Below are positions 8,143 through 20,905 of a stretch of DNA of 64,000 bases, one piece after another. Made by a program: the position numbers and the translations under genes. The stretch is from Bacteroidales bacterium (lineage in GTDB: Bacteria > Bacteroidota > Bacteroidia > Bacteroidales > UBA932). Each line of letters starts with the position of its first letter. Within the stretch, counting starts at the first letter, position 1. The DNA lies in NCBI GenBank assembly GCA_017962375.1, contig JAGCVJ010000018.1:62001-126000 (forward strand), read 5' to 3'. The notes beneath the pieces are model-generated. The model saw only the letters and a program-made list of their open reading frames with translations. It was not told where the DNA came from and did no database searches.

Positions 8143-8148
8143 AAATAG

Positions 8149-8156
8149 TAACTTTG
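8149..8156 (+). promoter_or_regulatory. -7 promoter box (TAACTTTG), predicted leaderless
   Basis: Exact TAnnTTTG ending only 7 nt before the ATG at 8164, so the transcript would start at or next to the start codon. Other such cases in the window are at 18691, 22205 and 44094. Confidence 0.5.
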
Positions 8157-8163
8157 CCGCGCT

Positions 8164-9102
8164 ATGAGAATTATTAGGATAGTTTTATTGATATGTGTTG
8201 TTGGTCTGACGGCTGTTGTGGGGCAGGCGCAGGGAAAGTTCGTAAGGATGGTGGAGGAAGACAGCCTTCGGATGCAGATCGTGGCAGACAGTTTGAGAGC
8301 GGACAGCATTAGGATTGCACAGATAAAGGACAGTCTGATGAAGGTTAGGGAGCCTGTGCTCAGGGCCATGAGGAAAAAGGTTGAGGGGAGCTACAATTTC
8401 TGGCTCTATACCCCGGCAGGATATGACCGCAAGGACACATTGTGCAAAGACACTCCGCTGGTGCTTTTCCTTCACGGCAAAAGCCTGTGCGGAAATGACC
8501 TTGAGAAGGTTCGCCGATATGGCAGCATAGATTGCGTGGAAAGGGGAAGGACGATACCCGCCCTGGTGGTTGCTCCCCAGAATCCTGGCGAATGGTGGAA
8601 TCCGGACAAGCTGTGCAAGATACTGGACTGGCTCAAGGTTGAGTATCCGTACGACACGGCAAGAGTTTATGTGCTTGGAATGAGCCTTGGCGGCTACGGC
8701 ACTCTTGACTTTGTAGCCGCAAAGCCTGAAAGAGTGGCAGCAGCTGTTGCTCTGTGCGGCGGAACAACCGCAAAAGACGTGGGCCCTATGGGTCAGGTGC
8801 CGCTGTGGATCATCCACGGAACGGCTGACAAGCTAGTATCCGTAAAGGCCTCGCAAGTGATAGTCAAAGACCTGGAAAGCAGACATCTGGCTTCCAGGCT
8901 CAGATACGAGTGGCTGATAGGAGCGTCGCATTCCTACCTGGCCAGGTATTTCTATATGCCGAAGATTTATGACTGGCTGCTGAGCCATTCTTTGAATGAT
9001 GAAGACCGTCCTGTTAATCGCGACGTGAAGATTACAAAGGATGACCAGAACACGGTTTATTCCGGCTGGGGGAAAAGACCTACACTTAAGACAATCCGTT
9101 AA
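8164..9102 (+). CDS. Secreted alpha/beta hydrolase (esterase/peptidase type)
   Basis: 312 residues. A cleavable signal peptide ends at about VVGQAQG. Residues 30-70 form a charged helical segment (DSLRMQIVADSLRADSIR), then the alpha/beta-hydrolase fold follows. The oxyanion region is LVLFLHGKS. The nucleophile elbow is G-M-S174-L-G-G, with acid D222 in HGTADKLV and base H256 in GASHSYLA, giving a complete triad. The closest families by pattern are prolyl-oligopeptidase-like and feruloyl-esterase-like hydrolases (YTPAGYD start). It acts in the periplasm or outside; the substrate is unknown. The gene converges on the TPM gene with a 4-bp gap. Confidence 0.82.
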   Translation: MRIIRIVLLICVVGLTAVVGQAQGKFVRMVEEDSLRMQIVADSLRADSIRIAQIKDSLMKVREPVLRAMRKKVEGSYNFWLYTPAGYDRKDTLCKDTPLVLFLHGKSLCGNDLEKVRRYGSIDCVERGRTIPALVVAPQNPGEWWNPDKLCKILDWLKVEYPYDTARVYVLGMSLGGYGTLDFVAAKPERVAAAVALCGGTTAKDVGPMGQVPLWIIHGTADKLVSVKASQVIVKDLESRHLASRLRYEWLIGASHSYLARYFYMPKIYDWLLSHSLNDEDRPVNRDVKITKDDQNTVYSGWGKRPTLKTIR

Positions 9103-9106
9103 GCGT

Positions 9107-10192
9107 TTACCAGCTTCCTCCTGCACCGCCGCCGGAGAATCCTCCGCCGCCGAAGCCTCCGAATCCGCCGCCTCCCCAGCCGCCTGAGGAACCTCCTCCC
9201 CAGCTGCCGCCTCCGTGGCTTCCGAATCCTCCGCGAGCAAGGCTGCTGAGAATGTTGCCGAGGATATATCCCGTTGTGAAATCTTCACCCCTGCGGTTGC
9301 CGCTTCCGAAGTTGTTGTTCTTGTTGTTGGAACTTGTGGCAATGATTACCATCGCGATGAAGAAGATAAACATCAGGATTGCCAATGCCCCGCCTTCATC
9401 ATCGTCTTCCTTGAATGCAAACTCGTCTGTTGAAACTTCTCCTGCCGCTACAGGGAATATGATATTGAGGGCATCGTTGATGCCGTTGTAATAGTCGTTT
9501 TCCTTGAAGGCTGGAATTACTCTGAGCTCGATGATTCTCTTTGTGAAAGCGTCTGTGAGAACAGGCTCCAGGCCGTCTCCAACGGCTATGAAAACCTCTC
9601 CGTTCTCGTCCTTTACCTTAGGCTTTACCAGAAAGACAATACCGTTGTCGAACTTTTTCTGGCCCACACCCCATTTGCTGCCGATCTTGTAGGCCACGTC
9701 TGCACGGTTCTTTCCGTTCAGGGATGGAAGAATCACGATTGCCACCTGGTTGGAAGTCTTGTTTGCAAACTCGTTGCAGCGGACCGTAAGAGCATCCACC
9801 TGCTGCTGGGTGAGAATGCCTGTAAAGTCGTTTACAAGATGCGGCGGATAAGGCCTGTCGGGAATATCCTTTGAGGATTTTTTCGCCTTGCGGAGAGCTT
9901 CTTCCGCGTTTCTGATGTTCTGGGAAGAAGCTGGGACATAATGCTCTGTAGCAGTTACCGGGCCCCAGGAACTGGAGACCACATTTCCGTCTTTGTCTCT
10001 TATTATGGCGGCCTGCTGAAGCGTTTTTTCTGCAGCCTGGCGGGAGATGTCATTCAGGGAGTCAATCCTCTCCTGGTTCATAGGATTGAATTCCTGGAGG
10101 ATTTCATTCTGGGCAAAAGAATTTCCGGCCAACAGCAATGATGCTGTCAGCAGCGCGGCAAAAACAGCCGTGCGGAACTTTCTATCTGCCAT
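9107..10192 (-). CDS. TPM-domain (YgcG family) membrane protein
   Basis: 361 residues from ATG 10192; an upstream ATG at 10204 is possible. The order is signal peptide (MADRKFRTAVFAALLTASLL), TPM domain about 125-265 (DFTGILTQQQVDAL, QVAIVILPSL, IAVGDGLEPVLTDA), one membrane segment (ALAILMFIFFIAMVII) and a Gly/Trp-rich tail (GGSWGGGSSGGW). This matches the YgcG/TPM phosphatase-like family. It overlaps the preceding small TPM gene by 11 bp and belongs to the cluster lemA-TPM-TPM, a common pairing thought to act at the cell envelope. One ATCGCGAT lies inside at 9351. Confidence 0.9.
   Translation of the reverse strand: MADRKFRTAVFAALLTASLLLAGNSFAQNEILQEFNPMNQERIDSLNDISRQAAEKTLQQAAIIRDKDGNVVSSSWGPVTATEHYVPASSQNIRNAEEALRKAKKSSKDIPDRPYPPHLVNDFTGILTQQQVDALTVRCNEFANKTSNQVAIVILPSLNGKNRADVAYKIGSKWGVGQKKFDNGIVFLVKPKVKDENGEVFIAVGDGLEPVLTDAFTKRIIELRVIPAFKENDYYNGINDALNIIFPVAAGEVSTDEFAFKEDDDEGGALAILMFIFFIAMVIIATSSNNKNNNFGSGNRRGEDFTTGYILGNILSSLARGGFGSHGGGSWGGGSSGGWGGGGFGGFGGGGFSGGGAGGSW
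9351..9358. repeat. ATCGCGAT palindrome inside TPM gene
   Basis: Perfect palindrome in the codons of the membrane segment. One of eleven copies. Confidence 0.7.
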
Positions 10193-10625
10193 ATGAAATC
10201 TCATCTGGCTGCTCGTTCTTGTCGTCTTCCTTGTGAGGGAAATAGTCTTTGAGGATCTTTCCTGTTTCCAGCACGGCATACTTGATGCCTTCTGCTATCT
10301 CGTTTTTCTCGAAATACACTGCGAGAGTGTTCTTCACTCCGTCCCAGAAGCCGGGCTTGGCCACGGAGTTGATTCCCACGTCGCCGATTACGGCAAACTT
10401 TCTGGACTTGAGGGAAACATAGATCAGCACTCCGTTGCGCTCTGCGGTGTCGAACATGCCAATGGCATCGAAGATGAAGATGGCTCTTGCCACCGGATCT
10501 TCTTCTGGACAGACGTTCTCTATGTGCACACGGATTTCCCCGGAAGTATCATTCTCGGCTTCTTTTATCGCCGACACGATATTCCGTTCCTCAGATCTCT
10601 TTATAAGCCTGTGGTGGAAAAACAC
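10182..10625 (-). CDS. Small cytoplasmic TPM-domain protein
   Basis: 147 residues with a single TPM domain (SGEIRVHIENVCPEEDP, RNGVLIYVSLKSRKFAVIGD, AEGIKYAVLETGKIL) and no signal peptide or membrane segment. It is the second TPM protein of the lemA cluster. It starts 11 bp after lemA and overlaps the next TPM gene by 11 bp, which suggests translational coupling. This lemA / short TPM / long TPM-Gly arrangement is known in many bacteria. The biochemical role is unsettled. Confidence 0.87.
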   Translation of the reverse strand: MFFHHRLIKRSEERNIVSAIKEAENDTSGEIRVHIENVCPEEDPVARAIFIFDAIGMFDTAERNGVLIYVSLKSRKFAVIGDVGINSVAKPGFWDGVKNTLAVYFEKNEIAEGIKYAVLETGKILKDYFPHKEDDKNEQPDEISYGR

Positions 10626-10636
10626 GGCCTTATGCT

Positions 10637-11224
10637 CTAGAACTGAACCTTTGGAGCTTCAGAAGCGCCCTCGGCTGCAGCAAAGTAAGCCTTGTTCTTG
10701 AATCCGAAGATAGAGGCCACGATGTTTGCAGGGAACTTGCGGACCATTGTGTTGTAGGTCTGGGCAGCTTCGTTGAAGGCGTCGCGGGCATTGTTCACGC
10801 GGTTCTCGGTTCCTTCAAGCTGGCTCTGGAGTTCCAAAAAGTTCTGGTTTGCCTTCAGGTCAGGATATCTCTCGATAGTAACCATCAGTCTTCCCAGCGC
10901 GTTGGAGAGTTCTCCCTGTGCCTGCTGGTACTGCTTGAGAGCCTCTTCAGTGAGGTTGTTAGGATCTACGGTTATGCTGGTGGCCTTAGCCCTTGCCTCA
11001 ATCACGTTCTGGAGAGTCTCGCTTTCGTGCTCGGCATAGCCCTTTACGGTTTCTACCAGGTTAGGAATAAGGTCTGCTCTTCTTTGGTACTGGTTTTCTA
11101 CCTGAGCCCAGGCCTTGTTAACGTTCTCGTCTTGTGATACCAGGGAGTTGTATTTGCCAAGTCCCCAAAGAACCAATGCAATAACGGCAATCAGTATAAT
11201 GCCGAGACATCCAAGCTTTTTCAT
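10637..11224 (-). CDS. lemA: LemA family protein
   Basis: 195 residues, the usual size. N-terminal membrane anchor (LGCLGIILIAVIALVLWGLG), then the helical LemA domain with its markers YNSLVSQDENVNKAWAQV, QYQRRADLIPNLVETVKGYA and the C-terminal FPANIVASIFGFK. It probably sits in the inner membrane with the coiled helical bundle exposed. It is the first gene of the lemA-TPM-TPM cluster. It lies 24 bp after the FISUMP lipoprotein gene, which may be co-transcribed. The molecular function of LemA is not established. Confidence 0.93.
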   Translation of the reverse strand: MKKLGCLGIILIAVIALVLWGLGKYNSLVSQDENVNKAWAQVENQYQRRADLIPNLVETVKGYAEHESETLQNVIEARAKATSITVDPNNLTEEALKQYQQAQGELSNALGRLMVTIERYPDLKANQNFLELQSQLEGTENRVNNARDAFNEAAQTYNTMVRKFPANIVASIFGFKNKAYFAAAEGASEAPKVQF

Positions 11225-11248
11225 GTTTTATGTTTTTAGAATTGTTTT

Positions 11249-12259
11249 CTATTTCTTCTTGACGCATCTTACGGAGAATCCCGGATTGTCGTTTTCAGCG
11301 TAGTTGAACGGGAAGTCCGGAAGATCGAAGTAGAGGTATCTGTAGTAAGCGGTCTTGCTGTCTCTTTCGGTTGAGCTCCAGAAGTAAGCGTAGGTGAGCA
11401 GGCCCTGGAAGCTGTGGTGCTGATGCTGGCTCATTCCGGCGGCAAGAGCGTTCCATTCCAGATCATTTGTAGGGTTGGTGTTTGCGCTGTAAGGCCAGAA
11501 CCTGTCGCCGTTGAAAGTGGCTTCGTTCATAACGTGATTACCCACCTCAGACCATTTGTCAAAGAACGAAAAGTCTTTGCCGGTAAGCGCTTTAGCCAGG
11601 TCTTCCCAGTCTTCGTTTGTAGGAACCGACCATCCGTCCGGGCAGATGCCTTGAGGACCTGAGCCCAGTCCGCTGCCAGAAACGCCTCCTGTGGCTTCTT
11701 TCCATGTGTAGAGCCTGCCTGTTACATAGCCTATGTCGTCTGCGGCCTCATATCCAGTACCGGCTTCGTAGAAGTTCAAGTTCTCGGCAAACCAGAACAG
11801 GTTGCCGGCTTCCATTATATGGTAATACTGGTTGTCTCTAGCGTCCAGTATGGAGTCTTTCGGCTCAGGCAGACCCTGCAGGGAACCTCCGAGCCAAGGC
11901 ATGATGGAAGTTACATAGTTTTGCGCTATGTCGTTGTAATAGCCGTCTGCCATTGCGGTTTCCGTAATGGTGTATTTGCCGAGGCTGTCCGGAACGATAA
12001 AGTAGTAAAGTCCGCCCGAGGCAACCCACGCGGTGTCTTTGGTGTTGTAGCTGTTGGTCCAGAAATACTTCACTCCCTGTGCAGGATCAGTGATGCCGCC
12101 GGTGTGGCAAATGCAGGCGGTGTTTATGAGCTTGTATGCGGGAGCTCCCGGATTCAGGTTGCCGGTCATGTAAAGTTTTTCCTTCTCTTTCTTGTGGCAG
12201 GATACCATAACAGAGGCTGCAACTGCCGCTAAGGTCAAATATGTTAGAAATCTTCTCAT
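11249..12259 (-). CDS. FISUMP-domain lipoprotein
   Basis: 336 residues with a lipoprotein signal peptide (lipobox V-M-V-S-C, Cys 21). The C-terminal half is the Fibrobacter succinogenes major paralogous domain, seen as GRLYTWKEATGG, GPQGICPDGWSVPTNEDWEDLA, YFWSSTERDS and the ending NPGFSVRCVKKK. The N-terminal part (residues 25-130) is unassigned. Probably a surface lipoprotein; FISUMP proteins are assumed to have binding or structural roles. A -7 box TAAATTTG on the minus strand at 12289-12282 drives it, divergent from apbE. Confidence 0.87.
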   Translation of the reverse strand: MRRFLTYLTLAAVAASVMVSCHKKEKEKLYMTGNLNPGAPAYKLINTACICHTGGITDPAQGVKYFWTNSYNTKDTAWVASGGLYYFIVPDSLGKYTITETAMADGYYNDIAQNYVTSIMPWLGGSLQGLPEPKDSILDARDNQYYHIMEAGNLFWFAENLNFYEAGTGYEAADDIGYVTGRLYTWKEATGGVSGSGLGSGPQGICPDGWSVPTNEDWEDLAKALTGKDFSFFDKWSEVGNHVMNEATFNGDRFWPYSANTNPTNDLEWNALAAGMSQHQHHSFQGLLTYAYFWSSTERDSKTAYYRYLYFDLPDFPFNYAENDNPGFSVRCVKKK

Positions 12260-12281
12260 TTTTCAACAATCGATAATCGCA

Positions 12282-12289
12282 CAAATTTA
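12282..12289 (-). promoter_or_regulatory. -7 promoter box (TAAATTTG) for FISUMP gene
   Basis: Exact TAnnTTTG on the minus strand, 22 nt upstream of the ATG. It forms a back-to-back pair with the plus-strand box at 12313-12320. Confidence 0.55.
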
Positions 12290-12312
12290 ATAAAAATGTG
12301 CGAACTATTATG

Positions 12313-12320
12313 TAAATTTG
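12313..12320 (+). promoter_or_regulatory. -7 promoter box (TAAATTTG) for apbE
   Basis: Exact TAnnTTTG on the plus strand, about 40-50 nt before the apbE start codons. Confidence 0.55.
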
Positions 12321-12354
12321 AACTATCAACCAAAAACGTGCCATCGGCATAATC

Positions 12355-12362
12355 ATCGCGAT
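12355..12362. repeat. ATCGCGAT palindrome at apbE start
   Basis: Perfect palindrome in the leader. Its last two bases are the first two of the ATG at 12361. Confidence 0.7.
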
Positions 12363-13422
12363 GGATATTATGAGAATTAAAACTGCAGCCTGCGCGGCCA
12401 TTGCCGCCCTGCTGGCTTTCTCCTGTTCTGACAGGGGAGGCCCAAAATATTACACCATAGACGGAACGGCCCAGGGAACCACTTTCCACATTGTATTCCA
12501 GCCACAGGTGGCTTCCGATTCTTCATTTGCCGCCGCAAGAGACAGCATCAATGCCTGCTTTGAGAGGATAGACAATTCCGTAAGCGGCTACAACAAGGAA
12601 TCTGTGCTTACGGCTTTCAACGAGAAAGGGGAGTTCTTTGTGGACGATATATTCATGGACAATTTCTTCGGATCGCTGAAGGCGTACAAGCTTAGCGACG
12701 GCCTGTTTGACGCTTCGGCGGCTCCGCTTTTCGACCTCTGGGGCTTCGGCTTCAAGACCGGTACCGAGGTAACTCAGGCTATGATAGACAGCGTGCTCCA
12801 GTTTGTTGGAATGGAGCATTTCGAGCCCACTTTTCTTCTCAAGGATGGAGACAGCATTCCAAGCCCTGCCCTGTTGAGGGATGATCCAAGGTGCAAGCTG
12901 AATTTCAACGCCATAGCCCAGGGCTACACGGCAGACTACATAGCATTCAAGCTGGAGGAGATGGGCATGGAGAACTTTCTTGTAGAGATAGGGGGAGAGG
13001 TTTACGCCAAGGGAGTCAATCCCAAGGGCAAGATGTGGAACGTGGGTATCGACCGCCCGGTGGACGGCAACAACTCTCCAGGAACCGACGTTCAGGCAGT
13101 GGTGCACATCCAGAACCAGGGGCTTGTCACCAGCGGAGACTACCGCAAGTTCTACATGAAGGACGGCAAGAAAATCTCCCATTCCATAAACCCCAAGACC
13201 GGCTATCCTGTTGATCATAACCTGCTCAGCGCTACGGTGGTGGCTAAAGAAGCCATGGCTGCCGACGCCTATGCCACATACCTTATGGTGCTCGGCTTTG
13301 ACAAGGCCAAGGAGGTGGTGGAAGGCACGGAGGGCATAGAGGCCCTGCTCATCTACGACGACAACGGCTCCCTCCAGGTCTGGATGAGCCAGGGTATGGA
13401 TGCAATTGCAGATTCGCAGTGA
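12361..13422 (+). CDS. apbE: FAD:protein FMN transferase, lipoprotein form
   Basis: 353 residues. It attaches FMN covalently to Thr/Ser of extracytoplasmic proteins such as the NqrB/NqrC or RnfG/RnfD subunits. Signal peptide with lipobox L-A-F-S-C. ApbE markers are GTAQGTTFHIV, NSVSGYNKESVLTAFN, DASAAPLFDLWGFG, the NFNAIAQGYTADY segment, LVEIGGEVYAKG and the metal/FAD-site region KISHSINPKTGYPV with AADAYATYLMVLG. ATG 12361 overlaps an ATCGCGAT; ATG 12370 (MRIKT) is an equally good start and would leave a more typical signal peptide. No Nqr or Rnf genes are in the window, so the substrate is elsewhere. Confidence 0.92.
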   Translation: MDIMRIKTAACAAIAALLAFSCSDRGGPKYYTIDGTAQGTTFHIVFQPQVASDSSFAAARDSINACFERIDNSVSGYNKESVLTAFNEKGEFFVDDIFMDNFFGSLKAYKLSDGLFDASAAPLFDLWGFGFKTGTEVTQAMIDSVLQFVGMEHFEPTFLLKDGDSIPSPALLRDDPRCKLNFNAIAQGYTADYIAFKLEEMGMENFLVEIGGEVYAKGVNPKGKMWNVGIDRPVDGNNSPGTDVQAVVHIQNQGLVTSGDYRKFYMKDGKKISHSINPKTGYPVDHNLLSATVVAKEAMAADAYATYLMVLGFDKAKEVVEGTEGIEALLIYDDNGSLQVWMSQGMDAIADSQ

Positions 13423-13442
13423 CAACCTTCCGCCTTTTTTGC

Positions 13443-13450
13443 TAAATTTG
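13443..13450 (+). promoter_or_regulatory. -7 promoter box (TAAATTTG) for amidohydrolase gene
   Basis: Exact TAnnTTTG, 39 nt upstream of the ATG at 13490. A TTATCGCGATAA palindrome follows in the leader. Confidence 0.55.
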
Positions 13451-13462
13451 AAAGTCATAGTT

Positions 13463-13470
13463 ATCGCGAT
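13463..13470. repeat. ATCGCGAT palindrome in amidohydrolase leader
   Basis: Extends symmetrically to TTATCGCGATAA (13461-13472), between the predicted promoter and the start codon. Confidence 0.7.
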
Positions 13471-13489
13471 AAACAAAAAACTCACAGAT

Positions 13490-15202
13490 ATGGAAAACAA
13501 AGAGAACCAGAAAAGCATTTCCAGAAGAAACTTCCTGAAAGCTTCCATAGTGCTGGGCGGAGCTGCCTCTCTTGCCGCAATAGGCGGAAAGGCTTTTGCC
13601 AAAAGCGCTGTGGCCCAGGGTTTCACCACCAAGGAAAAGTTTGACACCATCATCGCCAACGGTATGGTTTACAGCGGAGAAATCGCTGAGCCTATCAGGG
13701 CTGATGTAGGTATCAGAGACGGCAAGATCACAGCCATTGCCAAGCTCGGCAAGAACTGCAACAACTGGGTTGACGCTTCCGGCAGAGTGGTTTGTCCTGG
13801 CTTCATAGACATTCACGGCCATACCGACACCAACCTGCTCGAGGCACCTCTTGGAGACAGCAAGATCCACCAGGGAATCACCACCGACATTGGCGGAAAC
13901 TGCGGCTATTCTCCGTTCCCGTTCTCGGACGAGGAATATGAAAGAAGGAAGAACACTCTCAGGTTCGGATATCCTTTCTGGCAGAACATAGATGGTTTCT
14001 ACGATGCTCTCAGAAAGAACACAATCGGCATCAACTACGGCAGTTACGTGGGGCATGGAGACATTCGCCACATAGTTGTGGGCGACAACGACGTTGCCGC
14101 TACTCCAGACCAGCTCAAGCAGATGTGCTACATTCTGGACAAGCAGCTGGAAATGGGTGCCGTTGGACTTTCCTTCGGCCTGGAATACACTCCTGGATCT
14201 TACGGCAGAACTGAGGAGTTCATAGCCCTGCTTAGAGTTGTGGCCAAGCACGACGCCCTCTACGCCATCCACATGAGAAATGAGGATGATAGGGTGGAAG
14301 AGGCTATCGCTGAGGCAATTGAACTTGCAAGAAGGTCTGGGGCAAGACTTGAGATCTCTCACCTCAAGGCCCAGAACCAGAACAACTGGCACAAGGTTCC
14401 TAGCATGCTCAAGCTCATCCACGATGCTGAAGAGAGCGGTATGGACATTCACTTTGACCGTTACCCGTACACAGCTTTCTCAACCGGTCTGGACTGCTTC
14501 ATCCCTCTGGCCCAGAGACAGGGTTCTTCAAAGGAAATCCTTGCCCGACTCGAGAATCCTACCACAGAAAAGATCATCAGAGAATACGCTCTTGGAAGAG
14601 TGAAGAGGCTCGGCGGTCCTGAGTGCATCCTGATTGCCGCCTGCTTTGCTCCTGGCAATGAGAAATACACAGGCAAGTACCTTAACGAGTGCTGCAAGAT
14701 TTCCGGCAAGGACGAGTGGGAGACCATCAAGTACCTGCTCCAGAGCGAGAAGCTTGGCGTGAATATGGCCGGTTTTGCAATGAAGGAAGACAACCTGAGG
14801 ACTCTCCTGAACGACCCTCTGGCTATGGTAATTACAGACGGCAGCGTTTATTCTCCTAAGGGAAGGCTCGGAAAGGAAGCTCCGCATCCTCGTTCATACG
14901 GATCCTTCACCAACTACATCGGCAAGTACGTAAGAGACCAGAAGTTCTGCGACCTGCAGACCGCTATTTCCAAGTGTACCAGTGTTCCTGCCCATCAGCT
15001 CAAGCTCAAGGACAGGGGACTTCTCAAGGAAGGCTACTGCGCAGACATCCTGGTTATCAACTACGACACCATTGCAGACGTTGCAACCTACGGCCAGCCT
15101 CACCAGTTCTCTGCCGGCATAGACCACGTCTTTGTCAATGGCGCCCACACTCTCAAGAACGGTGAATACACTGGCTGCAAGCTCGCCGGCGTAATCATCT
15201 AA
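13490..15202 (+). CDS. Tat-exported N-acyl-D-amino-acid deacylase-like amidohydrolase
   Basis: 570 residues from ATG 13490; longer upstream extensions cross the promoter and are unlikely. A twin-arginine signal is clear: SRRNFLKAS followed by a hydrophobic stretch to about residue 45. The amidohydrolase domain starts at FDTIIANGMVYSG. Metal-site motifs are GFIDIHGHTD, YAIHMRNEDD, LEISHLKAQN and ITDGSVYSPKGRLGKEAPHPRS, matching the D-aminoacylase/N-acyl-D-glutamate deacylase subfamily. Tat export suggests the metal is loaded in the cytoplasm. It would cleave N-acylated D-amino acids, perhaps from peptidoglycan fragments, in the periplasm. The exact substrate is inferred from family only. Confidence 0.88.
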   Translation: MENKENQKSISRRNFLKASIVLGGAASLAAIGGKAFAKSAVAQGFTTKEKFDTIIANGMVYSGEIAEPIRADVGIRDGKITAIAKLGKNCNNWVDASGRVVCPGFIDIHGHTDTNLLEAPLGDSKIHQGITTDIGGNCGYSPFPFSDEEYERRKNTLRFGYPFWQNIDGFYDALRKNTIGINYGSYVGHGDIRHIVVGDNDVAATPDQLKQMCYILDKQLEMGAVGLSFGLEYTPGSYGRTEEFIALLRVVAKHDALYAIHMRNEDDRVEEAIAEAIELARRSGARLEISHLKAQNQNNWHKVPSMLKLIHDAEESGMDIHFDRYPYTAFSTGLDCFIPLAQRQGSSKEILARLENPTTEKIIREYALGRVKRLGGPECILIAACFAPGNEKYTGKYLNECCKISGKDEWETIKYLLQSEKLGVNMAGFAMKEDNLRTLLNDPLAMVITDGSVYSPKGRLGKEAPHPRSYGSFTNYIGKYVRDQKFCDLQTAISKCTSVPAHQLKLKDRGLLKEGYCADILVINYDTIADVATYGQPHQFSAGIDHVFVNGAHTLKNGEYTGCKLAGVII

Positions 15203-15260
15203 CCCGCTCTTTTAGGGTTTCTGCAAGACAATACGCTGATATTCAGCAACATAAGCATTT

Positions 15261-15286
15261 TCTAGTGCTTCGAAAGAGGCACTAGA
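15261..15286. terminator. Hairpin between convergent genes, probable terminator
   Basis: Perfect 8-bp stem TCTAGTGC / GCACTAGA with a 10-nt loop, in the 128-bp gap between convergent genes. Only a short T-rich tract (TTTTATTT) follows on the plus strand, so termination is likely but weak. Confidence 0.5.
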
Positions 15287-15330
15287 GATGTTTTATTTGC
15301 CTGACAATCAGGAGATAACCTTGCAGGACT

Positions 15331-16212
15331 TTATTGCCTGGTCATAGCCACCGCTTCTACTGCAAACATTGTCCGTGCTATATTATGGCCTTTATGAGCC
15401 AGTCGTTTTAACGGACTCTCCGCAGAAAAACCAGTCTGCTTCAAAAGCACTACTTGCTCCTCATATACAAGAAAGCCGTATGACTCTTTCAAAATCATGT
15501 CGTCAACCCTGTTTGAAGAAGGAAAGCAGTCTGGGTTTTGTCGCCGATGGAGAATTGACGGAAATAACTTCATCCCGTCTGGATGCAGCAACGCTCTAAG
15601 CAGCACAAGATCAGACATTGATTCTGGTGCAAATTCCACCAGCCATTCCCGCATCAGATCAGTTTCAAACCAAAGTGTATTCTCCGTTTCTCCTTTCTTG
15701 AACTTCCTGAGAATCTCATCATCAAGATCTCTCCATCCTCTCACGATAGTATGCTGAAATTTGTCAAGCTCAGGATATTCCAAGATGTGAATGATAATAA
15801 TACGACTAATATTGCTGTTACCTTTAAGAAATTCCAGCCTGAAAGATCCTTTCTCTATTTCTTCAATCTTGATGTTAGTTGCTTTCAAAGACAGCAGCAC
15901 TTTTTCTGCTTCAGCGATTCCTCCTGAACCTGTTTCCAGAACTATATCATTCTCAGTTTCATAATAGTCTGTAAAACACTCGAGTGGCAAATGCCATTCA
16001 TAGGGATGGACCCTTGTAATGGAATTGCCATACATCAGCAGGGAATCTGTCAAGTGTCCATGTCCCGGACTCATCGCGATACCCTTTTCCCTAAAAGCCT
16101 TTTTCAACTTATTGAGTAGTATCCAGCAAACTCCTATCTCAATATGACTTGTCATCCAGTTCAGTTCCAATGAAATCCGCGGTTCTATTATATGTTTATG
16201 TTTCCTAGTCAT
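15331..16212 (-). CDS. DnaE-like pseudo-polymerase fragment (catalytic site lost)
   Basis: 293 residues with no signal peptide. I recognise segments of DNA polymerase III alpha (DnaE) in order. Residues 44-80 (IAMSPGHGHLTDSLLMYG, SITRVHPYEWHLPLECF) match the PGRGSGAGSLVAYALKIT...DPLEFDLLFERF motif. Residues 181-225 match [20 protein letters not shown]...ALFRPGP, and 239-256 (ILKESYGFLVYEEQVVLL) match VLEPTYGIILYQEQVM. The end (AHKGHNIARTM) matches FNKSHSAAYA. The catalytic Asp-x-Asp segment after the first motif is replaced by ENDIVLETG, and most of the palm between motifs is missing. FRPGP has become HPDG. It cannot be a polymerase. It lies 27 bp after the DnaB-like gene. Function unknown; replisome mimic or sensor is an inference. 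Confidence 0.75.
   Translation of the reverse strand: MTRKHKHIIEPRISLELNWMTSHIEIGVCWILLNKLKKAFREKGIAMSPGHGHLTDSLLMYGNSITRVHPYEWHLPLECFTDYYETENDIVLETGSGGIAEAEKVLLSLKATNIKIEEIEKGSFRLEFLKGNSNISRIIIIHILEYPELDKFQHTIVRGWRDLDDEILRKFKKGETENTLWFETDLMREWLVEFAPESMSDLVLLRALLHPDGMKLFPSILHRRQNPDCFPSSNRVDDMILKESYGFLVYEEQVVLLKQTGFSAESPLKRLAHKGHNIARTMFAVEAVAMTRQ
16073..16080. repeat. ATCGCGAT palindrome inside DnaE-like gene
   Basis: Perfect palindrome within the coding sequence. One of eleven copies. Confidence 0.7.
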
Positions 16213-16239
16213 CTTTTGCCTTTGATCCTAGTTGATGTT

Positions 16240-16653
16240 TCATTTCTTGTCGGTTTTAACTACAACCTGAACGACAGGGATATGAGCTGATTTGGCCAGT
16301 CTTTGCAACCAGTACTGGTGATCCAAGTCCTGTTCTAGTAGCCCTTCAATCACAACGGCTCTAACAAACTTGCTATGAACCATTCCTCTGGCCTTGTTCT
16401 CGATAACCGGGAAACTGTGATTTTTCTGATTGACTGTGAATAGCTGTGCTACACTGGATTGGTTGTTCACCAGTTCCAGCAGTTTCTCGCTTCTGCTTGT
16501 CAGCGAGAAGAATGCAACCGTGGTATTCCACTTGTTGAGTAAATCCGATACAACTTGAGCCGAGAGCACGATGGCGCCCTCCTCATCCGAGGCAACAACA
16601 GTCTGAACTTTGCCTTTCTCGTAACCTGGAATTTGTGTAATTACTTCTGCCAT
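16240..16653 (-). CDS. DnaB-like pseudo-helicase (RecA fold, ATPase site lost)
   Basis: 137 residues from ATG 16653; an upstream TTG extension runs through the promoter and is rejected. It aligns by eye with the RecA-fold core of the replicative helicase DnaB. GYEKGKVQTVVASDEEGA stands where DnaB has GLQKSDLIIVAARPSMGKT, VAFFSLTSRSEKLLEL where DnaB has VLIFSLEMPSEQI, AVVIEGLLEQ for the Walker B LIMIDYLQL, and WLQRLAKSAHIPVVQVVV for SLKALAKELNVPVVALSQ. Walker A has lost its Gly-Lys-Thr, the catalytic Glu of FSLEM is Thr, and the Walker B Asp is Glu. The N-terminal DnaB domain is absent. It is probably inactive. It has its own promoter with WYL-type elements and is followed by the DnaE-like gene. 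Confidence 0.72.
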   Translation of the reverse strand: MAEVITQIPGYEKGKVQTVVASDEEGAIVLSAQVVSDLLNKWNTTVAFFSLTSRSEKLLELVNNQSSVAQLFTVNQKNHSFPVIENKARGMVHSKFVRAVVIEGLLEQDLDHQYWLQRLAKSAHIPVVQVVVKTDKK

Positions 16654-16672
16654 ATAGATTAATAATTCTTTT

Positions 16673-16703
16673 TTCGGCAAAAGTAATCTTAGCTTCGGCA
16701 AAA
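16673..16703 (-). promoter_or_regulatory. Promoter with two TTTTGCCGAA elements for DnaB-like/DnaE-like genes
   Basis: On the minus strand TTTTGCCGAA occurs at 16703-16694 and again at 16682-16673, 21 bp apart (two helix turns). A -7 box TACTTTTG at 16685-16678 overlaps the second copy. The first copy lies 8 bp upstream of the box, exactly as the single copy does in the WYL promoter. Probable operator of the WYL regulator (inference). Confidence 0.6.
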
Positions 16704-16715
16704 TTTTGGCAGAAG

Positions 16716-17711
16716 CTATTGCTCTCTTTGGTTGTTTGGTCTATATGTTTTAGGACTTATCATAAAACTAATATACTTTTCAATGAATTCTGTAGACATA
16801 TAAGATGTCAAATCCTCCCAAAATAGAGCAATAATATGTTCATTATTATTGACAAGATTCTTTCTAAATGATTCAAATTCCTTATTCGTATTTGGATTAG
16901 CTTTCGGGAAAATGAAAACAGAATACTTAGAATTATCTGCTTTTAGAGCATTCCTAAATAATTGATAATGTTTGTTGAAAGGATTGTTTGGTTTAGAAAA
17001 AGAGTCCTCACTCATTGCTGTATAAAAGTCTTTGCAGCCTTGGGTAAAAAAAGGAGACCTCTTTAGCATTTCCTTGTATCCTTTTTCAACATATGTACAA
17101 TGATTATTAATAGACTGTTGAGAGATCTTATTACTGTTAGTCCATTTACCAAAAGAAGATTCAGTATACTTTATTTCAAAGAATATCTCAGTTTCTTCAT
17201 CTTTAATATAAAAATCAAATTGACTTTTTTCTCCTCTTCCATAATTAACTAGTGATTTAAAATGGTCTTGCATCTCATCATCCTCATATTCAAAGTGACA
17301 GATAGCTTTTTTTGAGATTTCTAGATGGAGTTTTTCCTTAATGAATGTAGTTAATATATCGTTTGCATGACCCAAAGGTTTTTGAGAATCTACTGTCATC
17401 ATTCGACGGAAGAAATTGTAGCACATTATTTGTGAGGAATTTAAATGTCTTGCATAAGAATGAATTTTTCCAATAAGCCTTTCAAGATTCCCATTATCTT
17501 CGTAGATGATTTTATCATCATATATGAGATTGTATTTTTTTATAATGTCCAATTCATTTTCACCTTCTTTTAGGTCTATGATGTAATCATGTTTTGCTTC
17601 TTGCCCTTTATTATTTTTTCGGGTATAACCTCCAACGCGAGATATATCCTTTTTTTTAAGAAAGGAAGTAAGGCCATGTTCCCATTTTTCTTTAAACTCT
17701 TTTTGTGTCAT
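16716..17711 (-). CDS. PGN_0703-type PD-(D/E)XK restriction endonuclease-like protein
   Basis: 331 residues. The nuclease core is in the middle: SQFDFYIKDEETEIFFEIKYTE gives the D-x(n)-E-x-K triad (Asp, then EIK), with SSFGKW next to it. Around it are helical, charged regions with RRMMTVDSQKPLGHANDILT and a C-terminal segment (HIIALFWEDLTSYM). Overall this fits the family named after PGN_0703 of Porphyromonas, putative restriction-like nucleases without a fixed methylase partner. The gene is visibly more AT-rich than its neighbours, a sign of horizontal transfer. It starts 35 bp after the WYL gene and probably shares its transcript. No methyltransferase is nearby. DNA target and trigger are unknown. 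Confidence 0.72.
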   Translation of the reverse strand: MTQKEFKEKWEHGLTSFLKKKDISRVGGYTRKNNKGQEAKHDYIIDLKEGENELDIIKKYNLIYDDKIIYEDNGNLERLIGKIHSYARHLNSSQIMCYNFFRRMMTVDSQKPLGHANDILTTFIKEKLHLEISKKAICHFEYEDDEMQDHFKSLVNYGRGEKSQFDFYIKDEETEIFFEIKYTESSFGKWTNSNKISQQSINNHCTYVEKGYKEMLKRSPFFTQGCKDFYTAMSEDSFSKPNNPFNKHYQLFRNALKADNSKYSVFIFPKANPNTNKEFESFRKNLVNNNEHIIALFWEDLTSYMSTEFIEKYISFMISPKTYRPNNQREQ

Positions 17712-17746
17712 TTAATTATGTTTTTATTGAATAGAATAAATGCTTG

Positions 17747-18682
17747 TTAGATAATATGCCTTTTCTGCCATTTCTTCCTTAATTCCTTAGGTTCTAGGAC
17801 TTCCACGTCATCGCCAAAGTAGAGGAGGTCGTGGATGAAGTCGTAGTTTGGGGTGAGGTAGTATGTGAATATTGAGTGGTCTTTTGTTGATTTTGGTTGT
17901 TGGGTTTTGTTTGCTGTGTTTGTTGTTTCGGTTGGCTCAAGTTCTTGCTGGCTGGGGTGGAGAGGAAGGGTGCGGAAGTAGTTGGCTTGGCGGGCGCTGA
18001 CTTTGATCTTGATCAGGGCGGGCTTTGTGTCTTCGTAATGCAAGACTCCGTAGCGGGTACTGAAGAAAGAATCGGTATTGAATTTCTTAGGAAGCTTGAA
18101 ATGCTTGTCGCTGATTATGACGGAGTTCATGCGGTCAAGAGCAAAAGAGTGGGGATCTTTGTATTTGCCCTTGTGATCCCGGGCGAATAGATACCAGCGG
18201 CGCTTGTATTCCTTGAGGCAGAAAGGCTCCAGCAGGAAGTCGCGAGGAGAATCCATATTGAAGCTTTGGTAATTGACCTCAATCATCTTTTCATCCCGCA
18301 TGGCACGAATGATATCAGTAAGGAAGCGGTGGCTGGAAGGCTCGCTCTCGAATATAAGGCGAGAACGCAGGCTAGCACTTTCATTGATGAGACTGTTGAG
18401 GCTGAGGGCCTCCATCATCCATTCACGGATGCCGCTGCCATTCAGTTCATCCTTGTTCTCAATGTAATAAGTATTGTCACTTCTGTCGCATTTTATTGAA
18501 ATGCCAAAGATGTCGGCAATGGCGGCTATATGATTTGAGAATGTGCGGTTTGCGAGTTCTTTTTCCTCATCGTTGATGGAGCTGCACATCCATAAGTCCT
18601 TGATTTCCTTTAAGGTTAAGCGGCCTCTTGTCTGGAGTGTCTCCAGTAGCCAGATGTAGGATTTGAAGTAATTCTTTGCCAT
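17747..18682 (-). CDS. WYL-domain transcriptional regulator
   Basis: 311 residues. An N-terminal winged-helix-like region (about 1-95, TLKEIKDLWMCSS, FSNHIAAIADIFGI) is followed by the WYL domain (about 125-205) with the signature KRRWYLFARDHKGKYK, and a C-terminal WCX-like region ending in DVEVLEPKELRKKW. WYL proteins bind nucleic-acid-like ligands and often control phage-defence loci, for example BrxR and CapW. The promoter carries TTTTGCCGAA, 8 bp, then the -7 box TATCTTTG, which ends 8 nt before the ATG. The same architecture precedes the DnaB-like gene, so autoregulation and control of that promoter are likely. Confidence 0.85.
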   Translation of the reverse strand: MAKNYFKSYIWLLETLQTRGRLTLKEIKDLWMCSSINDEEKELANRTFSNHIAAIADIFGISIKCDRSDNTYYIENKDELNGSGIREWMMEALSLNSLINESASLRSRLIFESEPSSHRFLTDIIRAMRDEKMIEVNYQSFNMDSPRDFLLEPFCLKEYKRRWYLFARDHKGKYKDPHSFALDRMNSVIISDKHFKLPKKFNTDSFFSTRYGVLHYEDTKPALIKIKVSARQANYFRTLPLHPSQQELEPTETTNTANKTQQPKSTKDHSIFTYYLTPNYDFIHDLLYFGDDVEVLEPKELRKKWQKRHII

Positions 18683-18690
18683 AGCTAATA

Positions 18691-18716
18691 CAAAGATAAT
18701 AACACCTTCGGCAAAA
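18691..18716 (-). promoter_or_regulatory. WYL gene promoter with TTTTGCCGAA element
   Basis: TTTTGCCGAA at 18716-18707, 8 bp spacer, then the -7 box TATCTTTG at 18698-18691, which ends 8 nt before the ATG. It matches the DnaB-like promoter in element and spacing. Confidence 0.6.
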
Positions 18717-18762
18717 AAGTGGCTGAACGTCTAGTCTTTTTCTCGTTTTATTGTAAAATCTT

Positions 18763-18779
18763 TGGTAACTATTACCAAG
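18763..18779. promoter_or_regulatory. Inverted repeat, probable HigA operator
   Basis: TTGGTAACTATTACCAA is a perfect inverted repeat with 7-bp arms and a 3-bp centre. It lies 16 bp upstream of the higA -7 box, in the region between divergent WYL and higA genes. Antitoxins of this family repress their own promoter through such sites. Confidence 0.55.
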
Positions 18780-18794
18780 TTACGATAATTTTTC

Positions 18795-18802
18795 TATTTT
18801 TG
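18795..18802 (+). promoter_or_regulatory. -7 promoter box (TATTTTTG) for higA-higB-higA
   Basis: Exact TAnnTTTG, 23 nt before the ATG at 18826, just downstream of the TTGGTAA/TTACCAA inverted repeat. Confidence 0.55.
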
Positions 18803-18825
18803 TAGAGAAGAAATAGCGACACATT

Positions 18826-19149
18826 ATGGAAGCCAAAAATGATGGATACGTTGTAATAAATGACAGGACGAGCTTTGCAGTACATCCGGGAGAAATACTT
18901 CAAGCAGAATTAAAGGAGAGAAAAATAAAACAGAAGGACTTTGCATACTCTATTGGTATGCAGCCTTCACACCTGAGTGCATTGATTCATGGAAATAGAA
19001 GCATTACTCCTGAGATTGCAGCCAAATTGGAGAAAGGACTGGGTATATCAGCTTCTTTTTGGAAGAATTTGCAGAATAAGTATGTTGCTGATTGTATTAG
19101 GTTAAATAAACGTGATAAGTTGAAGTATGAAGGTAGAGGCAGATGGTGA
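18826..19149 (+). CDS. higA: HigA-type antitoxin (first copy)
   Basis: 107 residues with an N-terminal XRE/HigA helix-turn-helix: FAVHPGEILQAELKERKIKQ, MQPSHLSALIHGNRSITPEIAAKLEKGLG, ASFWKNLQNKY. It matches the HigA/VapI antitoxin family. The DNA-binding half is nearly the same as that of the second antitoxin at 19431 (HPGxxLxxELxERKIKQKDFAxSIGMQPSHLSALI). This copy ends soon after the HTH. The gene overlaps the toxin by 23 bp. It probably represses the common promoter and neutralises the toxin; which of the two antitoxins neutralises HigB is unclear. Confidence 0.88.
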   Translation: MEAKNDGYVVINDRTSFAVHPGEILQAELKERKIKQKDFAYSIGMQPSHLSALIHGNRSITPEIAAKLEKGLGISASFWKNLQNKYVADCIRLNKRDKLKYEGRGRW

Positions 19150-19447
19150 TTTGAAGGAACTGATGGAGACAGGCACGAATCGAAGGTATAAGAACATTGT
19201 CAGAAACAAGGAACTGTTCGATGGCTTTCATAGGGCTGTTGATACTATGAAAGCGGCCGAGAATATTGAGGCTCTGAAGAATATAAGTTTTTTGCATTAT
19301 GAAAAACTCAAATATGAGTTGTCTGGATTATCATCAGTTAGACTCTCTAACCGATATGTTCATAGGCTCATATTCGAAGAAAAAGATGATTTGATAACAT
19401 TGAAACTCATAGAAATAGACGACACGCATTATGGAAACAAAAAATGA
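19127..19447 (+). CDS. higB: RelE/HigB-type toxin
   Basis: 106 residues. It follows the pattern of Bacteroidetes RelE/ParE-superfamily toxins: MKVEADGDLKELMETG start, then RYKNIVRNKELFDGF, KAAENIEALKNISFLHYEKLKYELSGLSSVRLSNRYVHRLIFE (the LHYEKLKG-SVR core with basic residues) and a short beta end IEIDDTHYG. It would act as a ribosome-dependent or free mRNA endonuclease. The gene overlaps the upstream antitoxin by 23 bp and the downstream one by 17 bp, so all three genes are translationally linked. The gly in the usual LKGD turn is replaced (LKYEL), so activity is not certain. Confidence 0.78.
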   Translation: MKVEADGDLKELMETGTNRRYKNIVRNKELFDGFHRAVDTMKAAENIEALKNISFLHYEKLKYELSGLSSVRLSNRYVHRLIFEEKDDLITLKLIEIDDTHYGNKK

Positions 19448-19928
19448 AAAATTATACTTGCTGAATGATGTAGTTCCACTGTATGCTCTTCACCCAGGAG
19501 GTACGTTGCGGGAAGAATTAAGGGAAAGAAAGATAAAGCAGAAGGACTTTGCTCGTTCAATAGGAATGCAACCTTCACACTTGAGTGCTTTGATAAATGG
19601 AACGAGAAACATCACTCCAGCAATAGCTGCCAAGTTGGAGAAGGGGCTTGGTATCTCGGCAACTTTTTGGGTTAATCTCCAGAATAATTATAACATTGAT
19701 CTAAAGCGGATTAAAGAAAGAGATGAAGCGGCGGGCAAGAAATCGCCTGAGGGACAGGCTCCGGTAAAGCCATATCCTGTAAAGCAGTATCCGATGAGAG
19801 CATTGGCGGATCCTGTCGGTCCGCCTTGTGAAAAGCTGGCAAGGGTAATGCTTACGTTAGAAGCTTCAGACCTGGAATGGCTGGAGTTTCTGGCGGACCG
19901 AATGGGGTGGGGCTTCAAGGAAGTTTAA
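19431..19928 (+). CDS. higA: HigA-type antitoxin (second copy, extended C-terminus)
   Basis: 165 residues. Residues 18-88 form the same HigA helix-turn-helix as in the 18826 gene (LREELRERKIKQKDFARS, SHLSALINGTRNITPAIA, ATFWVNLQNNYNIDL). Beyond it, this copy has a Pro/Lys-rich linker (APVKPYPVKQYP) and a C-terminal helix (LEASDLEWLEFLADRMGW). It overlaps the toxin by 17 bp. Toxin-then-antitoxin is the classical higBA order, so this is likely the original partner and the upstream copy a duplicate. It converges on phoH with a 17-bp gap. Confidence 0.85.
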   Translation: METKNEKLYLLNDVVPLYALHPGGTLREELRERKIKQKDFARSIGMQPSHLSALINGTRNITPAIAAKLEKGLGISATFWVNLQNNYNIDLKRIKERDEAAGKKSPEGQAPVKPYPVKQYPMRALADPVGPPCEKLARVMLTLEASDLEWLEFLADRMGWGFKEV

Positions 19929-19945
19929 TGCTTGTAGGGCAAGAT

Positions 19946-20905
19946 TTAGGACTTGTCAAAGGCAGAGACTATTTTGCTGACAAGAGGGTGGCGGACAATG
20001 TCTTCCACGCCAAAGTTGATGACAGCAATGCCCCGGATTTTGCCAAGCATCTTTATGCCTTTTTCAAGGCCTGAGTCTTCTTTGTTTGGAAGGTCTATCT
20101 GAGTCATGTCTCCGGTGACGATGAACTTGGAGTTGTTGCCCATTCTTGTAAGGAACATCTTCAGCTGACCAAGAGAGGTGTTCTGGGCCTCGTCGAGGAT
20201 TACAAAAGCGTTTTCCAGGGTTCTTCCTCTCATATAGGCAAGAGGGGCAATCTGGATGATGCCTTCTTCCATGAGTTCCTTTAGTTTGGAGGAGGCTATC
20301 ATGTCTCCCAGAGCGTCGTAGAGAGGCTGGAGATACGGGTCAAGTTTTTCCTTGAGGTCGCCAGGCAGAAAGCCGAGCCTTTCTCCGGCTTCAACGGCAG
20401 GGCGGGTGAGTATCAGGCGCCTGACTTCTTTGTTCTGCAATGCTCTTACAGCCAGAGCAATGGCGGTGTAGGTCTTGCCGGTTCCGGCAGGGCCGAGAGC
20501 AAACACCAGATCGTGAGTGGCATAATCCTTTACAAGCTGTTTCTGGTGCTTGGTTCTGGCGGTTATGACCTTGCCGGCCTGTCCCATAACAATCATGTCC
20601 TTGTCGTTGACACTCGGTACGGTGGCCTTGGTTTCCCCGGTTTTCTTGTCGGCCTTGGCCACAAAGATGCTGTCCACGTCGTCGGTGTTGAGGTGGCGCT
20701 TTTTCATCCTTATCTTGGTGAGGGCTTCTATGGCGTTTTGGAAGGTGTCCATATCCTTGTAGCTGCCTTTGAGCTTTATGGTGCTGTCTCTTGCAGTTAC
20801 CTTAAGATCAGGGAAATATGAGCACAGATGGTTGATAATCCTGTCGTTGATGCCATAGATGTCTATCGGGTCTATGTTCTGAAGCTGTATCTTTTTTTCA
20901 GGCAT
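19946..20905 (-). CDS. phoH: PhoH family ATPase
   Basis: 319 residues. The N-terminal 100 residues are a KH-like RNA-binding region; then comes the PhoH ATPase with Walker A GPAGTGKTYTA, RPAVEAGERLGFLPGDL, Walker B NAFVILDEAQNTS and sensor VTGDMTQIDLP. Family members (PhoH/YbeZ) are linked to ribosome maturation and RNA metabolism with YbeY, which is not in the window. Cytoplasmic. The gene starts 12 bp after the CapA-like gene and is likely co-transcribed with it. Confidence 0.93.
   Translation of the reverse strand: MPEKKIQLQNIDPIDIYGINDRIINHLCSYFPDLKVTARDSTIKLKGSYKDMDTFQNAIEALTKIRMKKRHLNTDDVDSIFVAKADKKTGETKATVPSVNDKDMIVMGQAGKVITARTKHQKQLVKDYATHDLVFALGPAGTGKTYTAIALAVRALQNKEVRRLILTRPAVEAGERLGFLPGDLKEKLDPYLQPLYDALGDMIASSKLKELMEEGIIQIAPLAYMRGRTLENAFVILDEAQNTSLGQLKMFLTRMGNNSKFIVTGDMTQIDLPNKEDSGLEKGIKMLGKIRGIAVINFGVEDIVRHPLVSKIVSAFDKS

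Follow-up and report, generated by a model that had tools for sequence, protein, structure and literature searches.

Here we have characterized a four-gene minus-strand operon in the genome of a rumen Bacteroidales bacterium (GenBank assembly GCA_017962375.1, contig JAGCVJ010000018.1, forward-strand positions 62,001 to 126,000; this whole stretch of 64,000 nucleotides is termed the window, G000:C11:62001-126000 in our numbering, where G and L labels denote the genomes and loci compared). The operon encodes a WYL-type regulator, a PD-(D/E)XK nuclease and two replisome mimics, which are catalytically dead, truncated relatives of the helicase DnaB (mini-DnaB) and of DnaE, the alpha subunit of DNA polymerase III (Pol III; mini-DnaE). 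The dead proteins are conserved and under purifying selection, and one promoter box is common to the regulator and a mimic. Nuclease and regulator are swapped at one site, and one contig carries a cassette beside a prophage integrase. We give an even chance to the reading that these genes form a mobile nuclease cassette that is under regulator control and belongs to a single Bacteroidales family, in which the mimics would dock on the replication fork of an invader and either guide the nuclease or stall the fork. The cassettes are probably directed against mobile genetic elements, and the island most likely takes part in protecting this bacterium from phages or other foreign DNA that invades it.

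The original prediction, made from the letters of the window, had read the last gene of the operon as a DnaE-like protein without its catalytic aspartates. This homology is now secure, as a mini-DnaE profile matched Pol III alpha in the PDB (E 7.5e-21) alongside the Pfam finger-domain match of the window protein (Table 1); the match of the latter to DNA_pol3_alpha (1.7e-4) fell under the family cut-off. The protein spans the palm start and the first part of the fingers, lacks the PHP, beta-binding and C-terminal domains, and ends at the NKSH region. Loss of the catalytic residues extends well beyond the window: in an audit of 20 proteins (18 minis and two mid-size forms, with L137 outside the audit) the first and third Asp positions were lost and the second was Glu in 20/20, positions that we take to be D401, D555 and D403, respectively, by Escherichia coli numbering. 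The YQEQ Glu and the NKSH Lys were each retained in 19 of these 20 proteins. Mini- or mid-DnaE genes were found in 20/398 genomes of the family, all with E <= 3.8e-45; the next matches had E >= 2.2e-26, some 19 orders weaker, and, among the matches listed, came from frames of at least 824 aa. Phylogenetic analysis placed 19 mini rows (18 genomes and a prophage copy) in one clade with support of 100/100, to which the mid form of G323 is sister.

Larger DnaE-like relatives also occur. Four proteins of 719-840 aa (L010, L107, L111 and L117) retain the PHP ligand motifs and the DxD pair and stop past the finger region, with the third Asp replaced by Asn, Asn, Asn and Tyr; their genes are divergent from WYL in three of the four loci, one of them with an intervening small gene. 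A fifth large form (783 aa) is present in G259, and the tree does not join the large forms into a single clade. The L010 locus (6554-17224, genome G051) holds a replisome-like set consisting of WYL, mini-DnaB, a 277-aa P-loop DnaB-like protein and DnaE-like proteins of 445 and 787 aa, together with an exonuclease (RNase_T 6.5e-18) and a PLD-like gene (4.2e-11).

Taken singly, the DnaB-like protein of the window had no Pfam match; its homology needs a profile. An alignment of 12 mini-DnaB proteins matched a seven-member DnaB alignment with an hhalign probability of 94.8 (E 5.4e-8), and a PDB profile search returned DnaB 2r6a (E 3e-4), in agreement with the proposed likeness to the DnaB RecA core. 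The degenerate motifs first noted in the window, ASDEEGA for Walker A, FSLTS for FSLEM and VIEG for Walker B, were upheld, and by eye the Walker A P-loop is absent from all 12 aligned proteins, of which the L012 protein lacks that region. Mini-DnaB is present in 15/398 family genomes. Other DnaB-like genes were also seen: a second full-length DnaB (501 aa; L109:13703-15208, G393) lies ~4.7 kb from a mini-DnaB, and a 346-aa DnaB-like protein with an altered P-loop, SRSWGGKS (L132:1450-2490, G367:C38), is followed by a ~299-aa P-loop protein.

Ratios of non-synonymous to synonymous substitution (dN/dS) were calculated by the Nei-Gojobori method, counting only pairs with dS < 2.5. The median was 0.21 for mini-DnaE (107/171 pairs), with values of about 0.1-0.2 among close pairs and of 0.20 and 0.21 for the window copy against G167 and G097. 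For mini-DnaB the median was 0.32 (25/55 pairs), with 0.12-0.25 among close pairs and 0.25 for the window against G167, and for WYL it was 0.15 (6/10 pairs). Mini-DnaE frames are intact and of nearly constant length. Intact open frames had been claimed at the outset, and they are indeed maintained by purifying selection rather than being decaying fragments.

Both mimic and regulator genes are preceded by a 37-bp putative promoter box, which in the window stands before WYL and before mini-DnaB and elsewhere before some DnaE-like genes, including the mini-DnaE of G160. Its consensus is TTCTGCC-N3-TTTTTGCCGAAG-N7-TAnnTTTG, the last part of which resembles the Bacteroidetes -7 element. Because the second window copy lies in the 62-bp gap upstream of mini-DnaB, mini-DnaB and mini-DnaE may form a transcription unit of their own. 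A regular expression for the right part of the box matched at 29 places within 358,592 bp of 18 WYL-type loci, a set that takes in the entire window as well as two WYL-less loci; 234,665 bp from 15 Arm-type loci and 151,629 bp from 37 others yielded no match. Over these 29 sites the best dyad was TTCnGC-N9-GCnGAA, with a mean pairing of 0.62 versus 0.25 over all centres; a direct-repeat reading was dropped after this pairing analysis. In the G000 assembly the first box pattern matched three times, two of the matches being the window WYL and mini-DnaB promoters, and a stricter pattern gave 56 matches in 43 of 299 family genomes against six for the reversed control. Both half-sites were present at 16 of the 30 sites placed in context, seven before WYL, five before mini-DnaB (one a weak G096 copy), three before DnaE-like genes and one at a contig end; the other 14 sites, which lack the left half-site, in no case preceded a cassette family.

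Eight box sites in seven genomes, examined together with two second sites, were newly found. Four precede WYL (G015, G286, G282 and, as an 84-aa fragment, G220) and two precede DnaE-like genes (G262, 174 aa, PF07733 7.9e-9; and the large form of G259); near the second G015 site the closest labelled gene is secreted-looking, and the G118 site is at a contig end. The G262 DnaE-like gene follows WYL and a metallophosphoesterase, the position held by mini-DnaB in other genomes, so that DnaB- and DnaE-type mimics can occupy the same WYL-metallophosphoesterase slot (G262 and L295). The box provides a sequence handle for finding more cassettes and has already yielded these two DnaE-like genes. Under a WYL-type box, L107 (7859-8419) also encodes a protein of the SLOG family (YAcAr), one segment of which resembles PcrA_UvrD_tudor at a score under the cut-off.

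A map of 34 loci ruled out the four-gene operon as the conserved unit, which instead consists of a regulator, then a variable effector, plus a replisome mimic. The DnaB-like/DnaE-like pair that had been proposed as the unit did not survive this comparison. There is usually a single mimic per locus, and both small mimics occurred in one mapped locus only in G000 and G167, at the same site, and in G051, where the DnaE form is of 445 aa. Nor was the pair found across the order: at E 1e-34 and 1e-6, thresholds that would miss weaker relatives, the mini-DnaE and mini-DnaB profiles gave nothing further among 295 genomes sampled at order level, at least four of which are from the same family. The predicted neighbourhood with WYL held for mini-DnaB, which has WYL upstream on the same strand in 12/13 mapped loci (this count leaves aside the L013 and L115 fragments, a contig-edge copy in G393:C132 and a weak L117 match), and was less frequent for mini-DnaE, which lies within a WYL locus in 5/20 genomes and is more often accompanied by an Arm-DNA-bind_5/DUF1653 protein. 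The latter was found in 13/20 mini/mid-DnaE genomes, every copy beside mini-DnaE (separated by one small gene in G097 and two g22 loci), and in 0/20 hand-picked controls, a short DUF1653-only match in G268 aside. In Arm-type loci mini-DnaE is divergent from the regulator-effector genes, and the intergenic DNA is strongly conserved across 12 aligned loci, with no consistent repeats in it apart from the conserved blocks. Neither regulator was in view in G353 and G367, where the upstream DNA holds part of this conserved sequence.

REase-ARP nucleases and WYL regulators recurred near the mimics across the mapped loci. Among 21 mini/mid-DnaE loci, a REase-ARP homologue was found by phmmer in 10 and an MBL-fold gene in five; three have a Pfam-unrecognised gene read as nuclease-like only, and three lack any nuclease candidate, two of these near contig ends. 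A secreted-looking protein of ~167 aa (STNPLNYSGRMYVEAIEI) recurs in both cassette types, in L137 (4846-5349, without Pfam match) and in seven further loci (L010, L099, L107, L108, L109, L110 and L113).

Exchange of effectors can be followed at the phoH site, where the window island stands (Table 1). The phoH gene was detected in 36/39 genomes of the genus, and in the 30 loci read the amidohydrolase gene abuts it in 13 and lies 1.2 kb off in one (L240), an island intervenes in four, and 12 gave no query match. At this site G000 and G167 both carry WYL and a REase-ARP protein, which differs between them (9.7e-8 for that of G167), followed by the two mimics, mini-DnaB first; in G167 a 78-aa gene separates mini-DnaB from mini-DnaE. 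Identity between the two islands ends at ~17792, near the 3' end of WYL, and returns at 16718, at the mini-DnaB box, which bounds the effector swap. The G097 genes at the same site encode, in order, an Arm-type, a 236-aa and a further REase-ARP protein and are divergent from mini-DnaE. Mobility is further indicated by IMG/VR contig 3300021400_003794, in which an Arm-REase/mini-DnaE cassette lies between integrase and tail genes. An origin of the mimics in phages was considered and rejected. This one prophage-borne copy was the only mini-DnaE in IMG/VR, where 80 retained phage DnaE loci had 24-32% identity to the large form and mini-DnaB had no match; INPHARED and PLSDB gave partial matches only, covering <= 46% of the query among the matches listed, with <60% identity, and four of the five plasmid rows listed for PLSDB were annotated dnaE.

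Within the window, frame reading bore out the four minus-strand genes and the gaps of 35, 62 and 27 bp between WYL, nuclease, mini-DnaB and mini-DnaE, and Pfam confirmed the regulator and the nuclease (Table 1). The N-terminus of the WYL protein had no match to a helix-turn-helix family in the Pfam scan that gave its WYL and WCX matches, and the nuclease shows by eye the D...ExK signature QFDFYI...FFEIKYTE. The mini-DnaB length is counted from an ATG, the mechanical open reading frame beginning further upstream. Divergent from WYL within the island, two HigA-like antitoxin genes flank a HigB-like toxin gene (2.9e-4, below cut-off); the same arrangement is present in the G167 and G108 islands, and G097 has higB with one higA. 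The GC fraction is 0.364 at 16001-18000, 0.481 at 14001-16000, 0.422 at 18001-20000 and ~0.49-0.51 beyond.

Table 1. Features of the window island (E values are given where a family or profile match was found)
Feature	Position	Strand	Basis
Inserted island, flanked by the stop codons of two convergent genes, amidohydrolase (ends 15202) and phoH (ends 19946)	15203..19945		
Inverted repeat CTAGTGCCTCTTTCGAAGCACTAG, possible terminator 3' of mini-DnaE	15262..15285	minus	sequence
mini-DnaE, Pol III alpha remnant, 293 aa	15331..16212	minus	PF17657 (DNA_pol3_finger) 4.5e-13
mini-DnaB, DnaB RecA-core remnant without Walker A, 137 aa	16240..16653	minus	profile comparison
Putative promoter box before mini-DnaB, the same as before WYL, within the 62-bp gap	16678..16714	minus	sequence
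REase-ARP PD-(D/E)XK nuclease, 331 aa, swappable effector	16716..17711	minus	PF22558 5e-26
WYL-WCX transcription regulator, 311 aa	17747..18682	minus	Pfam WYL 3.4e-13, WCX 4.1e-9
Putative promoter box before WYL, TTCAGCC...TTTTTTGCCGAAGGT...TATCTTTG	18691..18727	minus	sequence
higA-higB-higA type toxin-antitoxin genes	18826..19928	plus	TIGR02607 HigA 6.6e-18, 1.1e-17

A defensive role is suggested by the type of effector, its swapping, the patchy distribution of the cassettes, the prophage position and the defence-linked type of regulator. Restriction-modification neighbours in two loci point the same way, with a type I N6_Mtase (1.2e-36) and specificity gene at L096:11645-15066 and a partial EcoRI_methylase (7.9e-21) at L093:4533-4997, each 2-4 kb from mini-DnaE, as does a metallophosphoesterase in a sister locus that matches the PADLOC candidate PDC-S10 (2.2e-39). 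Given these two methylases we dropped the notion that methyltransferases are missing near cassettes, although none was found inside the window island by frame reading and Pfam.

In the scheme we favour, the regulator (WYL or Arm-DNA-bind/DUF1653) would hold the cassette at a low level and release it on infection or DNA damage, and the nuclease would attack invading or replicating DNA. The mimics, which retain finger and helicase-core parts without catalysis, would dock at the fork or on the replisome of the invader and either direct the nuclease to the fork or stall it. We rank this reading first on three grounds: the promoter box is common to mimic and regulator, a single mimic family is found with unrelated effectors, and two unrelated replisome folds can fit one slot. 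That the mimics guide, brake or serve as antidote is an inference from sequence, as is the sensing, decoy or triggering role first proposed for them.

Several observations weigh against this reading. At the phoH site G108 has WYL-REase and a mini-DnaB fragment with no mini-DnaE, indicating that the rest of the cassette can persist without the mimic. L102 (G367) carries mini-DnaE with no recognised nuclease or regulator nearby, L012 a truncated mini-DnaB without WYL, and the mid form of G051 falls outside the mini clade on a long branch. Some REase-ARP calls lie below the Pfam cut-off (L010 25.4 and L093 20 bits versus 27). In a scan of defence models (PADLOC-DB 2023), WYL alone of the four operon proteins found a match (CRISPR-associated WYL, with Cas3c weaker); the window nuclease and both mimics had none, nor did 8/10 further cassette proteins. 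Finally, the first box pattern was drafted from known sites, with new genomes in two scans only, which is why the stricter pattern was run, and the context in that scan rests on one site each in 30 of 43 matching genomes.

An unlikely alternative, the best placed of those considered, is that the mimics alone act as dominant-negative brakes on phage, plasmid or host replication under stress, with the nuclease merely adjacent and controlled by the same switch. A brake would suit proteins that have lost their active sites and conserve finger and core residues, as well as the slot shared by both mimic types and the L102 mini-DnaE, for which no partner was recognised; against it, 15/21 mini/mid-DnaE loci hold a REase-ARP or MBL-fold gene, or 18/21 when unassigned nuclease-like genes are counted. 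Alternatively, the mimic may confer immunity, either by holding the nuclease in check or by shielding host forks from it, as a general antidote that is retained while effectors are exchanged. An island without a methyltransferase gene would need some other restraint on its nuclease, and the divergent orientation of mini-DnaE in Arm-type loci would allow independent production. We consider this quite unlikely, as the association of one mimic family with unrelated effectors (REase-ARP, MBL-fold and others) is hard to reconcile with a specific antidote, G108 retains WYL and nuclease without an intact mimic, the regulator's box before mini-DnaB suggests co-induction, and methyltransferase genes do lie near mini-DnaE in L096 and L093.

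An accessory complex of the damage response, resembling the ImuA-ImuB-DnaE2 mutasome with inactive RecA-like and polymerase-like scaffolds under WYL control, is improbable. The analogy draws on published descriptions of ImuA as an inactive RecA-like and ImuB as an inactive Y-family protein (PMC3919608, PMC12926913) and of activation of the WYL protein PafBC by single-stranded DNA (PMC11804915), and the large DnaE-like proteins do retain PHP motifs and the DxD pair. Set against this, the third Asp is missing in 4/4 audited large proteins, nucleases and a prophage position are at odds with a repair module, and no Y-family polymerase was recognised among 48 Pfam-scanned proteins, a partial survey of the loci that included no genome search for such polymerases. 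Finally, that the mimics are what is left, in decay, of a replication module from an integrated phage or plasmid is highly improbable: truncation, dead active sites and some broken mini-DnaB copies (fragments in L013 and L115, a TGA within the G266 match) would agree with decay, and are outweighed by the low dN/dS of close mini-DnaE pairs, by intact frames of steady length and by the single clade, which has conserved promoter DNA of its own.

Returning to a role for the mimics at the invader's fork, we tentatively raise the possibility of an undescribed class of immune cassette, in which dead polymerase and helicase copies would serve as fork-recognition modules, switched by WYL or Arm-DUF1653 regulators and joined to a swappable nuclease without a cassette methyltransferase. 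If such a class exists, two unrelated folds can occupy the same promoter-defined slot and aim a nuclease through the fork, and replisome parts have been recruited as non-catalytic immune components. It would also give a testable answer to the question of how a cassette nuclease without a methyltransferase recognises invading DNA, namely through the fork. Within the open-licence literature the expectation of no described counterpart stood: we found nothing there on truncated DnaE in defence, on DnaE- or DnaB-like defence in Bacteroidetes or on PGN_0703, no paper naming the REase-ARP family (PF22558), and an unrelated mention only of DUF1653. At least one broad survey of C-family polymerases removed sequences without an intact active site (PMC3919608), and such proteins may therefore be overlooked elsewhere.

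Mini-DnaE shares with DnaE, a C-family polymerase, the palm start, a finger segment and YQEQ and NKSH-like motifs, whereas mini and mid forms lack the catalytic Asp residues and the minis also lack PHP and anything past the NKSH region. Likewise, mini-DnaB has the RecA-core strand order, the FSL motif and the Walker-B strand of the DnaB C-terminal domain, and differs from it in that Walker A and the N-terminal domain are gone and the middle is shortened. The window nuclease and several other cassette effectors match the REase-ARP family. Catalytically inactive RecA-like and polymerase-like partner proteins are common to the cassettes and to ImuA-ImuB-DnaE2, from which the cassettes differ in protein families, in the nuclease, in their mobile context and in having no active polymerase that was recognised. 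A parallel in regulation is with the BrxR/CapW-type WYL regulators found in phage-defence islands: two sites in the BrxR island carry inverted repeats to which the protein binds (PMC9122601), and in both cases a WYL-WCX protein heads a variable locus with an inverted-repeat box at its own and at a second, internal promoter. The cassettes differ from these systems in the sequence and spacing of the box, at which binding is here predicted, and in placing dead DnaE and DnaB genes, rather than BREX or CBASS, under its control.

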